NCBI RefSeq assembly: GCF_033807715.1
Contig: NC_084590.1
Coordinates: 35,057,505 to 35,121,504 of the forward strand
Origin: Cololabis saira
Lineage: Eukaryota > Chordata > Actinopteri > Beloniformes > Belonidae
Direction of reading: 5' to 3'
DNA: 64,000 nt
A program made the position numbers and the translations under genes. This document shows, piece by piece, positions 20,095 to 45,965 of this stretch. Under the pieces are notes generated by a model. The model ran no database searches. It saw only the letters and a program-made list of their open reading frames with translations, and was not told where the DNA came from. Position 1 is the first letter of the stretch. Each line of letters begins with the position of its first letter.

Positions 20095-21440
20095 CTTCAG
20101 AGGTCTGACCAGCCCCCGGGTCTGGCACTCAGAAGGCGCGCCGATTTTTTCCAGTGGCCAACCGCGGTACTGCAACCAAAAATCCCATGCGGCCCAGAAA
20201 GCTTTTTTCCCATAGACCGCAATAATAAAAGAGAAGCCTCTAAAACTGTTCACAGGACACCTCCAGCTGTAATCCCCGGCAATTACTAATCTTTGTATTC
20301 TATATTTTTAAGTCATGGACTTTATATCCGTCAAAAATGTTTTATAACGGCCAGAAAAGTAAAAGAAAAGTCTCTTTCTGGGCGTGACGTCACGGCTGAC
20401 GTCACAGCCGTGTCCGTGCATTCCACGGATGTTTTATATTAATATATATTATATAATTATATTATATTAATACATTAATAATATATGTAATGCTATACAT
20501 GTAATAATATACATTAATTAAGATATTATATTAATACATATTATATTAATACTTGCGTCATTGCCCCGGGGCATGATGGGAGGCCCCAGAGCATCATGGG
20601 AGGTGACTCAACTGCGCATGCTCTATGGGCCGCTGTATGCGGAAGTAAACCCGGAAGTCAGAAATTTTTTCGGTTTATGCGCTGGCTGAGCAGAATGCAT
20701 TGAAATGAATGGGCGGCCATTTTTAGTCTCCAATCCAGTTTCTATAATACATCCATGGGTCTGACCCATAGACATATGTCTATGGTCTGACCAGCCCCCG
20801 AATCTCGCGCTCAGAAGGCACGCCGATTTTTCCCAGTGGCCAGCCGCGGTACTGCACCAAAAAATCCCATGGGGCCCAGAAAGCTTTTTTCCCATAGACC
20901 GCAATAGTAAAAGAGAAGCCTCTAAAACTGTTCACAGGAACCTCCAGCTGTAATCCCCGGCTATTACTAATCTTTGTATTATACATTTTTAAGTCATGGA
21001 CTTTATATCCGTCAAAAATGTTTTATAACGGCCAGAAAAGTCAAAGAAAAGTCTCTTTCTGGGCGTGACATCACAGCCGTGTCCGTGCATTCCACGGATG
21101 TATTATATTAATATATATTATGTAATTATATTATATTAATACATTAATAGTATATGTAATACTATACATGTAATAAAATACATTAATTAATATATTATAT
21201 TAATACATATTATATTAATATTCGCGTCATTGCCCCGGGGCATGATGGGAGTCCCCAGAGCATCATGGGAGGTGACTCAACTGCGCATGCTCTATGGGCC
21301 GCATAAAGCGGAAGTAAACCCGGAAGTCAGAAATTTTTTCGGCGTATGCGCTGGCTGAGCAAAATGCATTGAAATGAATGGGCGGCCATTTTTAGTGTCC
21401 CATCCAGTTCTATAATACATCCATGGGTCAGACCTGGGCT
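20095..21440. repeat. Tandem duplication, two copies of a ~675-bp repeat-derived unit
   Basis: GGTCTGACCAGCCCCCG begins copies at about 20,102 and 20,784. GCCCCGGGGCATGATGGGAG recurs near 20,563 and 21,232. Both copies contain the same CCCATAGACCGCAATA, TTATATCCGTCAAAAATG and palindromic AT-rich core. Divergence is small (a few percent by eye, plus a short indel that drops the offset from 682 to 669). Confidence 0.85.
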
Positions 21441-22620: not shown

Positions 22621-23015
22621 CGCACCAAAACGACAGCGAAAGCCGAGATTTAAAAGCAGACTAGAAACTGTTTTAATTTCAGCTGTAGCGCTGTTAATAT
22701 GCCACTTTATTACGTTTTAACATCTTTTCAGGCGTAAAAGTAACCGTTAAGATCCCGACCCTGGGCTCAGTTTATCCAAATAACGCCTGTTAAGAAATTT
22801 GATCCGATGTTTCGGGGATCAAAAGAGCCGCCGGCTCCGGGGAGCAGCAGAAGCTCACGGCCGGGGGGACAGACGTGATCGCCGGGTCAACCCACGTCGT
22901 CGTCCCGGGGAGAAACCTTCAGCTCTGTGGAGAATTACCGCTGGATGAAATAAATCATTTAGGAAGATAAATGTTGGTTTAATAGATGAAATCTAACAGT
23001 TGTAGCTGTCACGTT
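22620..23015. repeat. Dispersed repeat shared with 34.05-34.39 kb
   Basis: Runs from GTTTTAATTTCAGCTGTAGC to AGATGAAATCTAACAGTTGT with near-identical order and text to 34,050-34,385, and part of it appears inverted at 61,345-61,480. It is internal sequence of the TCCCAAT-ended element family described at 33.9 kb. Confidence 0.8.
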
Positions 23016-23020
23016 TGTTT

Positions 23021-23127
23021 GTCTGAATATAAAGTGAATCTTCATGTTTTTACTAGATAGATAGATAGAACTGTATTCATCTATCTAGTAAAAAAAAAAA
23101 ACATGAAGCTTCACTTTATATTCAGAC
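23021..23127. repeat. Hairpin inverted repeat
   Basis: Arms begin GTCTGAATATAAAGTGAATC and end in the near-exact complement, separated by a short (TAGA)n-containing loop. Both arms also carry ACTAGATAGAT and its complement. Confidence 0.8.
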
Positions 23128-23149
23128 AAAACTACAGACGAAAACAAAG

Positions 23150-23673
23150 CATATATTGGATTGGAATTGGAATTGGAATTGGATTTCAGGCTCAGTTGGT
23201 TACACCTGTAGATAATAGTTAACCTGCCTCATTTTTGTTGTTTGCTTCTGATCCGGTGTGAATAAAACGGCTTCGTCAGTGGAACTACTTCCCCGATAGG
23301 TATCAGAACGATATCCATTCGTGGATTCGTTGTTTTAGTTTGTTATTTTAGTTTGTTGTTTTTGTGCATTAGTTTGGCCACAGCCTTGTGCTTCGGGTAC
23401 ACATCCATGACTGACTAGGTAGGTCGCCATTTTTAATGGTTGCCTGGCCGGGTCATTGGGCTTAGTGTTTAAATCTCCCACCAGCGCTATATGCATGAAG
23501 ACTAGGGTTGAGACAGTTAGTTTTCGGGTTAGGTAGGTAGCCAGGGGGAAGGTTGTTCCACATTTTGACTGTCATATCGGGTTGGTAGTAAACATTTGTA
23601 GTCAGTTTGTCAGGTTAGCCTAGAGTGTCAGGTGTAAGTACTTGGTTTTTGTGGGTCAGCTGTTGTTCCAATT
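23150..23673 (+). other. 5' leader of the Gag-ST6 retroelement with LTR-end-like signals
   Basis: Holds (GGAATT)n at 23,160-23,185, an AATAAA at 23,261-23,266 and, 33 bases on, GGTATCAGAACG (23,299-23,310). The last resembles the tRNA primer-binding motif GGTATCAGAGC common in LTR elements. The order signal-then-PBS is what the R-U5 end of a 5' LTR looks like, yet the sequence does not match the 3' LTR at 26,357-26,738. Confidence 0.4.
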
Positions 23674-25495
23674 ATGTCTGCGATTGAGGATTTTTTGCAG
23701 AATCCCAGTGAAAGTCTGTTGGAGACTTACACAAAGGATCGTTTGTTGAAGGTGGCAGAGCATTTTGGTGTTGAAATCCCCAGTCAGGGGCGTAAAGCTA
23801 ACATTTTGTGTGCACTAAAGGATGGTTTGGTTCAGTTTGGGGTTTTGTCTTCTGAAATTGAAGGTAGTGACACCCAGTTGGCCGGGGACATTTCTCCTCA
23901 GGTTGAGCCAGAGCTGTCGCAAAAGTTTGTGAGGCCTATAGCTGGGATTGAGGTGCCTTTAACTTTTGAACAGAAAAAAGAACTGTTGACTTTGCAGAAT
24001 AAATTACAAACTACTCGTGCACAGGAGCAGGCTCTAGAGATGGAGAAGTTCAAATATACTATGAGGTTACGTGAAGCTGAGCTGCAGCAGGCGAGAGAGC
24101 GTCAGGAGTTTGAGCGTTACAAGCTGGACTTAATCAAGGAGGGGAAGATTCTTGATCCCATAGCAGTTGGGAAGGGAGAACCTGTGGCAGGTACCTCTCT
24201 GACCTTTGATGTCTCTGGTTCTTTGCGGTTGGTGCCCAAATTTTCAGAGAAGGATCCAGATACATTCTTCTTGCTCTTTGAGAGGTTGGCCAAGAACAGG
24301 AAGTGGAGTGATTCTGAGCAGACCCTCCTGTTACAGTGTGTATTGACTGGTAAAGCCCAGGAGGCTTATTCTGCTTTGCCTTTATCAGACAGTGTTAACT
24401 ATCTCAAGGTTAAAATGGCAGTCTTAAAAGCATATGAATTGGTGCCTGAGGCTTATCGACAGAAATTTAGGAGTGCAAGAAAGCATGAGGGAGAGACTTA
24501 TATAGAGTTTGCACGTGAATTGTCTACCCTTTTTGGTCGTTGGAGACTGGCCTCTGATGCTCAGACTTTTGAACAGTTGAGTGAACTACTGTTGCTAGAA
24601 CAGTTTAAAGAAACGCTTCCTGAGCGCCTGGCTATTTATTTGAGTGAGAAGAAGGCTAAGACTTTGGCTAGAGCTGCTGTCATAGCTGATGAATATGCCC
24701 TGATTCATAAAGTACGTTGGGACTATGGACGGAGGGATAATGTTGTTGGTGGTCATCAAAAAGGTACCGGGAGTGATTCTCTTCCTTTCAAGATGGGAAA
24801 TGCTGGTAGCAAGTTGGATTCAGGTCAAACTTGTAACTACTGTTTAGGCAAAGGTCATTGGAAAGCTGACTGTCCTGTCCTGAAAGCTAAGCAAAAGTCC
24901 CAGCCAGGAAATCGCCAGGTTAAACCTGCAGCCTTAGCCGTTCCAGTACGGTTGACAGAAAACATTTTGAGGGAGAGGGCTGCGGCTATCGCTGCTGTTC
25001 AGCAGCTTACCAAGCCGTCAACATTAGCTGCTCATTCTTTGTCTGAGACTCTGTTTCCTCTTGAGGAATCTGTTGCTTCTTCTACAGAAGACTCTGGTCA
25101 GGCTAACGGTGATGAAATTGATCCTGGTTATCACAAGCACGTCAGTGATGGGTTTGTCTCTTTGGTAGGAAGTGATAAAAAAGTTCCTGTCAAAATTTTG
25201 CGAGACTCTGGTGCTTTAGACTCCTTCATAGTGGCATCTGTGTTGTCTTTTACATCAGCCACTGACACTGGTGATTCGGTTTTGGTCAGGGATATGGGGT
25301 TGTCTGTGTTCCCTGCACCATTGCATAAGGTGGTGCTCTTTTCAGATCAGGTTAAGGGGGAAGTAGCTTTGGCAGTGCGTCCTGCCCTGCCAGTTCAGGG
25401 TGTGCAGGTAATTCTGGGTAACTATCTGGTTGATGGTCCATTCCCAGGGGCTTCTCCCTCACCAGTGGTAACTTGCTCTCCTTTGGTAGACCAGG
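23674..25495 (+). CDS. Retrotransposon Gag-protease polyprotein
   Basis: The start ATG opens a long frame. Residues ~1-60 form a SAP-like helical start. About 80-160 is a charged coiled coil (QEQALEMEKFKYTMRLREAE). About 185-350 is a capsid with SCAN-like features (LPERLAIYLSEKKAKTLA). A zinc knuckle CNYCLGKGHWKADC begins near residue 387. A retropepsin-like active site D-S-G lies at residues 511-513, followed by a beta-rich stretch. This is the gag-pro arrangement of Ty3/Gypsy (Gmr1-like) elements. The frame stays open to 26,100 (808 codons), but after about 25,495 it runs out of frame through the GC-rich captured segment and no longer encodes element protein. Function is inferred from motifs. 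The DSG core looks intact, but activity is unknown. Confidence 0.85.
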
Positions 25496-26128
25496 TTGAG
25501 TGCAGAGACCTCCAAGCAGCCGTACAAGGGCTTCAAGCCTCACCTGGGCTACGTCAGCATCTCCAAACAGGAGCCCCTGAAGTTGCACTGCGACCTGTGC
25601 AGCATCGTGTCCAGCTCCGGGCAGATGTTGGGCCAGGCAGCCGTCCCAGAGATGGACAGCTCGCCCTGCGTCTGGCGCATGAACAACGCCCCCACGCGGG
25701 GGTTCGAGGACGACGTGGGCCAGCGCACCACCCTGAGGGTCATCTCCCACACCAGCGTCCCCCTGCTGCTGCAGAAGCCCCAGTACTTCTTCGGCCAGGC
25801 CAACGACACCGTCTACGTCGTGTGTGGGCCGCTGCGGAACATGAGGAAGGACGGGAAAGGCATCGTTTACAACATGCTGCGCCAGGCCTCGGAGAACTAC
25901 CTTCACGCTCGCATCTACGTCACCACAGAGGACCGGATGAACTACTGCGACATGGTCTTCAAGAAGGAGATAGGAAAAGACAGGATCCAATCTGGCTCCT
26001 ACCTGAGCACCGGCTGGTTCCCACTCATTCTCTCTATCGACATGTGCAAGGAGATCCATATCTACACCACATTGAAAGGTTCCGAAAATGTTGTGGCTGA
26101 TGCATTGTCTCGTGCGTTGCCTGCATAA
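25496..26128 (+). CDS. Captured ST6GALNAC3-like sialyltransferase fragment fused to RNase H tail
   Basis: Open frame, offset +1 from gag-pro, that starts without an ATG (its first codon here is TTG). About 185 codons match the lumenal domain of the GalNAc alpha-2,6-sialyltransferase family. The L sialyl-motif region runs from LHCDLCSIVSSSGQM through WRMNNAPTRGF to the RVISHTS stretch. RNMRKDGKGIVYNML, IYVTTEDRMNYCD and the S-motif stretch SGSYLSTGW follow. Among paralogues the wording is closest to ST6GALNAC3. The cytoplasmic tail, signal anchor and the C-terminal motif III/VS part are absent. At about 26,062 the frame passes into GSENVVADALSRALPA, the end of a Gypsy RNase H domain, and stops. 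No introns and high third-position GC contrast with the AT-rich element. It is open throughout. Enzyme activity is unlikely because the active-site tail is missing. Confidence 0.9.
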   Translation: MSAETSKQPYKGFKPHLGYVSISKQEPLKLHCDLCSIVSSSGQMLGQAAVPEMDSSPCVWRMNNAPTRGFEDDVGQRTTLRVISHTSVPLLLQKPQYFFGQANDTVYVVCGPLRNMRKDGKGIVYNMLRQASENYLHARIYVTTEDRMNYCDMVFKKEIGKDRIQSGSYLSTGWFPLILSIDMCKEIHIYTTLKGSENVVADALSRALPA

Positions 26129-26356: not shown

Positions 26357-26734
26357 TGTGACGGCCTTACTAATTTGTGTATCTTCACAGCAGTTCCTGT
26401 CCTTGTGGCTGAAGAGGGCGGCCGTCCAACCTTATTGGCCACACCTGAGGGTGTTGTCTCACCATTATAAAAGGCCTCAGTTGTCAGCCTGCTCACTCTC
26501 TCCTTGATTGAGCAGCTGACAGCCACATGGCCAACATGGTGTAATTTGGGTTTGCTTTGGTTGTGTATTCTGTTTTACACACATCTACACCTACACACAC
26601 TCACTGCATACACTCACAACATGACAACATACTTTACTTTCATTTGGGAGTATATTTAGTTAAATAAATCATCTTTTTTGTACCTTGAATTGTGTGTGGA
26701 GACTCTTTTGTTGCAAACTGTGAGCCAGGTTTGT

Positions 26735-26738
<4 letters not shown>
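26357..26738 (+). mobile_element. 3' LTR, 382 bp
   Basis: Begins TGTGACGGCC right after the polypurine tract and ends GTTTGTAACA (TG...CA termini). TATAAAA at 26,466-26,472 and AATAAA at 26,663-26,668 fit a promoter and polyadenylation signal. (AT)n follows directly, so the 3' target-site copy cannot be read. Confidence 0.8.

Positions 26739-31089: not shown

Positions 31090-45965
<14,876 letters not shown>

Follow-up and report, generated by a model that had tools for sequence, protein, structure and literature searches.

The window analysed here (G000:C4:35057505-35121504) is a stretch of 64,000 nucleotides on contig C4 (52.8 Mb) of the Cololabis saira genome, and it contains a hybrid LTR element in which a fragment of a host sialyltransferase gene, ST6GALNAC3, follows a Gag-protease coding part. 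This window copy is a 5'-truncated Gmr1-like (SCAN-Gag, IN-before-RT) Ty3/gypsy element; having lost its 5' LTR and roughly its first 515 bp, it is therefore itself a remnant. Its parts, in window coordinates, are as follows.

23176..23673, plus strand: residual 5' untranslated part, without the 5' LTR and PBS
23674..25509, plus strand: Gag-protease coding part, open
about 24,445-24,702, about 24,829-24,876 and 25,204-25,212, plus strand: SCAN, CCHC text and protease D-S-G, respectively
25510..25511, plus strand: 5' join of type A, a 2-nt microhomology (CT) between the element and ST6GALNAC3 exon 2
25511..25573, plus strand: captured 3' part of ST6GALNAC3 exon 2 (63 bp)
25574..25983, plus strand: captured ST6GALNAC3 exon 3, entire (410 bp)
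25984..26065, plus strand: captured 5' part of ST6GALNAC3 exon 4 (82 bp)
26063..26066, plus strand: 3' join, a 4-nt microhomology that reads TACG in the other six copies and differs in its last base here
26067..26128, plus strand: terminal RNase H scrap and pol stop codon, with GSENVVADALSRALPA at 26,078-26,125
26357..26738, plus strand: 3' LTR (TG...CA), with a G-rich polypurine tract just before it

The truncation point lies at about 23,166-23,176, where the alignment with six other chimeric copies begins; this corresponds to about element position 516 in one of them, L011. No partner for the 3' LTR was found within the window; LTR pairs in those six chimeric copies and in three full-length copies support its identification. 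The RNase H scrap ends in ADALSRALPA before the stop, and the same terminal motif ends a related element protein, P0127. Directly 5' of the truncated element, window positions 22654-23130 contain a stretch 87% like 34036-34387, with an inverted repeat at 23018-23130 beside the element's 5' end; the repeats at 22654-23130 are perhaps what broke that end. Elsewhere, the repeats at 1-1930 and 20102-21434 are a tandem array built of units of about 205-216 bp and a sequence of about 665 bp that is present twice.

The captured piece consists of 555 bp of spliced ST6GALNAC3 cDNA (25,511-26,065), and in the window copy its sialyltransferase frame runs on into GSENVVADALSR without a stop. A sequence-only reading of this DNA had described stop-free, GC-rich, intronless codons from the ST6GALNAC group, and this description stands, with ST6GALNAC3 as the member concerned: the fragment matches the GT29 sialyltransferase family (Pfam E 8.7e-21), and each of the fish proteins P0002-P0012 matches its 212-aa frame with 81–89% identity over 87–90% of the frame's length; one predicted Cololabis saira protein matches the window's frame at 100% from end to end. 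Captured exon 3 and its counterpart in the saury gene share about 96% of their nucleotides; with identity at both the protein and DNA levels, chance is therefore excluded. GC content is 59.7% in the fragment (90% at third positions) as against 45.9% in Gag and 39.4% in the window as a whole. Stretches of the fragment carry text that the sequence-only reading took to be the L and S sialyl motifs. The GT29 domain is partial, covering profile positions 47-223 of 272 alone; the fragment is without the membrane anchor and about 70 C-terminal enzyme residues, the fish protein P0002 running about 70 residues further. No relative of the captured piece was found in viral contigs.

The parent gene lies on contig C10, where the matches at 19.167, 19.198 and 19.248 Mb correspond to three exons of a single gene, bordered by GT and AG and separated by introns of about 30 and 50 kb. 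Exon 2 ends at C10:19167503 with GT next, exon 3 (C10:19197818-19198227) is flanked by AG and GT, and exon 4 starts at C10:19247974 after an AG. The captured piece begins within exon 2 and ends within exon 4, and the splice-site ends of the parent fall exactly at points where it is continuous, so exons 2, 3 and 4 are joined without introns. An intronless parent, which the sequence-only reading had said would refute the capture, is thus not what the genome contains, and the exact loss of introns at the exon joins of an intron-bearing gene is what capture of an mRNA calls for. The same two exon joins fall at the same residues in other fish, as judged from exon-skipping isoforms and from frames that read into introns.

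The host element is equally well defined. As the sequence-only reading had noticed, the window copy encodes a Gag-protease with zinc-knuckle text and, downstream of the knuckle, a D-S-G protease text; Pfam adds a SCAN domain (E 5.2e-17, 61.9 bits against a cut-off of 27), and the CCHC knuckle, although visible as text, scores 15.1 bits, under its cut-off of 20.8. Among relatives of the Gag part, the best are SCAN-Gag proteins of fish. One of these, P0127, has the order SCAN, knuckle, integrase (688-857, with H2C2 at 688 and rve at 762; C-terminal part at 1003-1037) and RNase H (1223-1320), with NVVADALSR near the protein end; RT follows the integrase in four more of the relatives scanned (P0138, P0147, P0162 and P0222), and in P0121 SCAN alone was seen. 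The saury genome retains full-length copies of this family (L048, L049 and L050; 6.36–6.39 kb), which by tblastn are colinear with P0127 and P0147 and carry IN-RT-RH where the chimeras have ST6GALNAC3. Some 0.55 kb of exon 2-3-4 cDNA accordingly stands in place of about 2.85 kb of IN-RT-RNase H. It had been proposed that the RT region was swapped for the host fragment; RT is indeed missing, but so are IN and nearly all of RNase H.

The LTR pairs of the three full-length relatives differ at 1/385, 0/383 and 0/383 positions, and two of the three have a 4-bp TSD, L050 being without a clear one. Two LTRs, a polypurine tract and TSDs are thus found in the element family, the window copy having the 3' LTR alone. 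The PBS presumably matches tRNA-Pro. A SCAN domain in Gag and an integrase upstream of RT are traits of Gmr1-like Ty3/gypsy elements in the consulted passages of PMC3424704, PMC3587641 and PMC8220671, the last two of which name IN-before-RT as the unusual order of Gmr1. The saury family shares the SCAN domain in Gag with these elements, and the integrase upstream of RT-RNase H is seen here in the protein relatives and, by colinearity, in the full-length saury relatives; unlike Gmr1-like elements, the chimeric saury copies are without IN, RT and most of RNase H.

Three further observations concern SCAN-Gag sequences at large. Near-identical copies of one internally deleted Gag piece lie on the small unplaced contigs C125 and C221 (L052 and L053) and are possibly haplotype duplicates. 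A second SCAN-Gag-like family is present in the saury genome, with at least 25 matches among the 40 of 45 candidates scored, which are 66–67% identical over about 280–300 bp of Gag-protease. In Pseudochaenichthys georgianus, the predicted protein P0123 ('cep104 isoform X1') combines a SCAN-Gag part with other Pfam domains and is either an element-host fusion model or an annotation fusion.

A search of the 1.146-Gb assembly with window positions 25,490-26,065 gave 11 matches (10 of 10 first-look candidates scored), namely the three parent exons on C10 and eight matches at seven chimeric places. The hybrid is thus present at no fewer than seven places in the saury genome, which sit on six large contigs and are listed here.

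C4: the window copy
C13:42.05M: L009
C9:34.61M: L010
C14:12.65M: L011
C13:11.69M: L012
C10:2.05M: L013
C19:34.09M: L014, in two pieces

All six chimeras outside the window have two LTRs, with pair differences of 0/381, 0/382, 0/382, 1/383, 3/380 and 9/360 (the last with 23 gap columns in addition), so that the pairs are identical in three of the six. TSDs of 4–5 bp flank five of them, L009, which sits in an AT repeat, being without a clear one; a hybrid enclosed by LTRs and TSDs is therefore seen outside the window and not in the window copy. A separate search with the RNase H tail (40 of 63 candidates scored) gave at least 15 tail-bearing matches. Five of these places, L054-L058, have about 0.2 to 1.8 kb of native pol upstream of the tail, and no second captured host gene was seen at them.

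We consider it very probable that a saury Gmr1-like element caught a spliced ST6GALNAC3 mRNA once, and that the resulting hybrid is a non-autonomous carrier of a passenger, moved in trans and later recombined. The joins, defined against the three full-length relatives, are the most direct record of the event. The type A 5' join, found in five copies, has CT common to the element and exon 2; the type B 5' join, found in L011 and L012, lies about 0.18 kb further into pol and has GCAG common with exon 3; and the 3' join has TACG common to the element and exon 4. The microhomologies at joins A, B and 3' are thus 2, 4 and 4 nt, and since an overlap of at least 4 nt has a chance probability of 0.016 each and one of at least 2 nt a probability of 0.156, join A alone is not significant. 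Short homologies of this kind are as expected of template switching, which is the model described for LTR-mediated retroposition in passages of PMC5408686. Taken together, the exact exon joins, the microhomology and the extant full-length relatives bear out the suggestion that a Gypsy element captured a spliced mRNA by template switching. Under this model, element RNA and ST6GALNAC3 mRNA would have been packaged together in one particle; during synthesis of what would be the minus strand, RT would have left the RNase H tail for exon 4 and subsequently returned to element RNA 3' of the protease. IN and RT would have been provided in trans by the full-length relatives present in the genome, with which the hybrids would later have recombined.

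The existence of two 5' joins raises the question of which is the older. One could envision type B as the first capture, type A having arisen by a second switch onto ST6GALNAC3 mRNA; type B does keep more element sequence, and no change common to several copies lies in the 5' 89 bp present in type A alone. This order would require two switches to host mRNA, whereas the passage from A to B requires an exchange between two element RNAs alone. In addition, at a position 22 nt upstream of join A both type B copies have the base of the three full-length relatives and all five type A copies differ from it, and both type B copies follow the sequence of the relatives as far as their join. We thus regard type B as unlikely to have come first. 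Within the captured piece, the test of whether the type B copies form one clade is not significant (AU p = 0.18).

The reading frames bear on whether the captured piece does anything. The Gag-protease frame had been thought to break at about 25,495, but in the window copy it stays open to 26,100, reading the captured piece in the wrong frame, and the sialyltransferase frame is +1 to the protease in all six copies whose captured frame was read (L014 being left out). In L011, whose captured piece is free of indels, the Gag-protease frame continues open through the piece, not in register with the sialyltransferase frame, and terminates at the stop codon of RNase H. The seamless run of the sialyltransferase frame into the RNase H tail, which the sequence-only reading had stressed, is real in the window copy; it is nevertheless secondary and not the original state, because the window copy has a one-base length difference from the full-length relatives just 3' of the 3' join and because the tail is out of frame in two of the six copies. 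The tail is in the sialyltransferase frame in the window copy, L009, L010 and L012 and out of it in L011 and L013; if three independent events are assumed, in-frame tails in four of six copies through differing indels would be expected by chance about 1 time in 8.

The sequence-only reading had also suggested that the sialyltransferase frame might have been maintained, and had proposed a comparison of selection with the parent gene. Counting each change once against the saury parent, with kappa set at 4, the captured piece has 49 nonsynonymous and 20 synonymous changes plus one stop, a nonsynonymous fraction of 0.710 as compared with a neutral expectation of 0.712 (p = 1); with no transition bias the expectation would be 0.769. 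The captured piece thus evolves at the neutral rate, and no purifying selection on the sialyltransferase frame was found. The Gag-protease of the seven chimeras is under constraint (43:37 plus one stop; expected fraction 0.693, p = 0.0035; contrast with the captured piece, p = 0.042), and this constraint may be kept in the full-length lineages that recombine with the hybrids, or in the hybrids. Among the chimeras, pairwise NG86 ratios come to 0.32 in Gag-protease and 0.68 in the captured piece, and the captured piece gives 0.54 against the parent; we put the values of 0.54–0.68, which fall below 1, down in part to transition bias, which NG86 ignores. Nor do the residue changes avoid conserved positions: of the 49 distinct changes, 28 hit columns that do not vary among 22 fish proteins, such columns making up 99 of 185, and in the window copy the figure is 9 of 15. 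Indels are found in the captured piece in five of the seven copies (L009, L010, L012, L013 and L014), and L010 has a stop in it. A maintained frame is rejected on these grounds, together with its being out of frame with Gag-protease.

A related proposal is that the captured part has been retained as a working product, whether as an enzyme, a decoy or a spliced Gag fusion. The captured part is open in the window copy, differing indels have brought the RNase H tail into its frame in four of six copies, and two NCBI models, P0001 and P0029, link Gag pieces to it through predicted introns. Because the changes are neutral in rate and do not spare conserved sites, because indels and a stop have accumulated, because the frame is out of step with the protease and because the membrane anchor and C-terminal residues are missing, the captured piece is most readily interpreted as a passenger that has no enzyme function, and a working product appears highly unlikely. 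The two models deserve comment in their own right. P0001, a predicted Cololabis saira protein on C4, covers the window copy and P0029 covers L011; both are named 'sialyltransferase 3-like' and both are element fusions with introns inside Gag. Both skip one and the same in-frame segment of Gag, 19 residues (57 nt) long, an omission that might reflect spliced reads.

As to the number of captures, A175S is found in all six chimeras covering that position, as are R71Q and a silent change at Y164 in the six covering those. All 22 of the other fish proteins compared have A at position 175, as does the saury parent; A175S therefore arose after capture. Its presence in every covering copy, together with a 3' join that is the same in six of seven copies apart from later point changes, indicates one capture event. 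Several independent captures at recurrent breakpoints would account for two distinct 5' joins and for mixed Gag lineages, but they are hardly compatible with a derived residue common to all covering copies or with the common 3' join, the seventh copy, L013, having a deletion of about 147 bp that extends up to that join; we regard them as extremely unlikely. Single capture followed by exchange probably explains both features. In Gag-protease the chimeras are interleaved with the full-length relatives and do not form one clade, the free tree being better than one with the chimeras as a clade by 67.6 log units (AU p = 0.0002). From the mixture of Gag lineages and the second 5' join of two copies, we infer an exchange of parts between hybrids and full-length elements after the capture. 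M176I is shared by the window copy and L011, and a 2-nt deletion by L010 and L012; this distribution of 3' variants suggests exchange among the hybrids too, but the clade test on the captured piece is not significant (AU p = 0.18). Against a single capture, L012 is without two changes common to the other covering copies. A 33-nt in-frame Gag length variant is common to the chimeras L012 and L014 and to full-length L048.

That the hybrid is a chimera of the assembly or a product of DNA-level joining, to which the sharp change in composition at both joins might point, is exceedingly unlikely: recurrence at seven places on six large contigs, with six LTR pairs and five TSDs, speaks against an assembly chimera, as does the probable assembly, fColSai1.1, being built from HiFi reads in the consulted part of PMC11090075, and the exact loss of two introns favours an RNA intermediate over joining of DNA. 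The search for further copies with the same joins, which had been suggested as a check, has thus removed the concern that none would exist.

Capture of a gene by an animal LTR retrotransposon is therefore documented with unusual completeness in the saury genome. The parent, the full-length relatives, the switch points, hybrids with measured LTR divergence and signs of exchange are all found in one genome, and the steps of capture, spread and recombination are thus testable within it. There is also a warning for annotation, in that P0001 and P0029 are fusions derived from elements rather than paralogues of a sialyltransferase. Because the copies differ from ST6GALNAC3 mRNA by only 2.7–4.6%, one could further imagine antisense or small germ-line RNAs against the element also hitting ST6GALNAC3 mRNA by way of the multiplied sense-oriented block; this is very unlikely, but it would, if true, give the element a means of tuning a host glycosylation gene.

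That LTR elements can capture host mRNA has been described in animals (passages of PMC5408686 and PMC4299795) and in plants (Bs1 of maize, in part of PMC13317346). The sequence-only reading had held capture of a glycosyltransferase in a Gypsy element to be undescribed; the process itself is known, but among the titles and abstract openings of open-licence PMC articles we found no report of a sialyltransferase captured by an LTR element or of ST6GALNAC3 together with a retrotransposon, and 'sialyl' is absent from the main text of the published saury genome papers. The saury case thus belongs to a type of gene capture that is already known, and it is a well-resolved instance of it, with a host gene for which no earlier report was found in that search. 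The consulted passages of PMC5408686, a review that credits LTR-mediated retroposition to Tan et al. (2016, Genome Res) and names mosquito, zebrafish, chicken and Drosophila, contain no mention that we found of ST6GALNAC3 or of the Gmr1-like clade. The cases described there share with the saury an intronless cDNA carried by an LTR element, joins with short stretches of similarity and insertion by element machinery; set against them, the saury hybrid is present at seven places, has extant full-length relatives and has a second 5' join. Crocodilian ERVs carrying nectin3 and KIT-ligand mRNA (passages of PMC4299795) likewise combine a vertebrate element, a host mRNA and several insertions, but there nectin3 replaces env, whereas in the saury element IN-RT-RH is replaced, and crocodilian retroviral ORFs are reported to be under purifying selection, whereas the saury captured piece is neutral. 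Bs1 and the saury element are both LTR elements with host gene fragments; the plant element, as described in part of PMC13317346, contains pieces of three host genes in a chimeric, translated ORF, whereas the saury element contains a piece of one host gene, which is out of register with the Gag-protease frame that reads through it.
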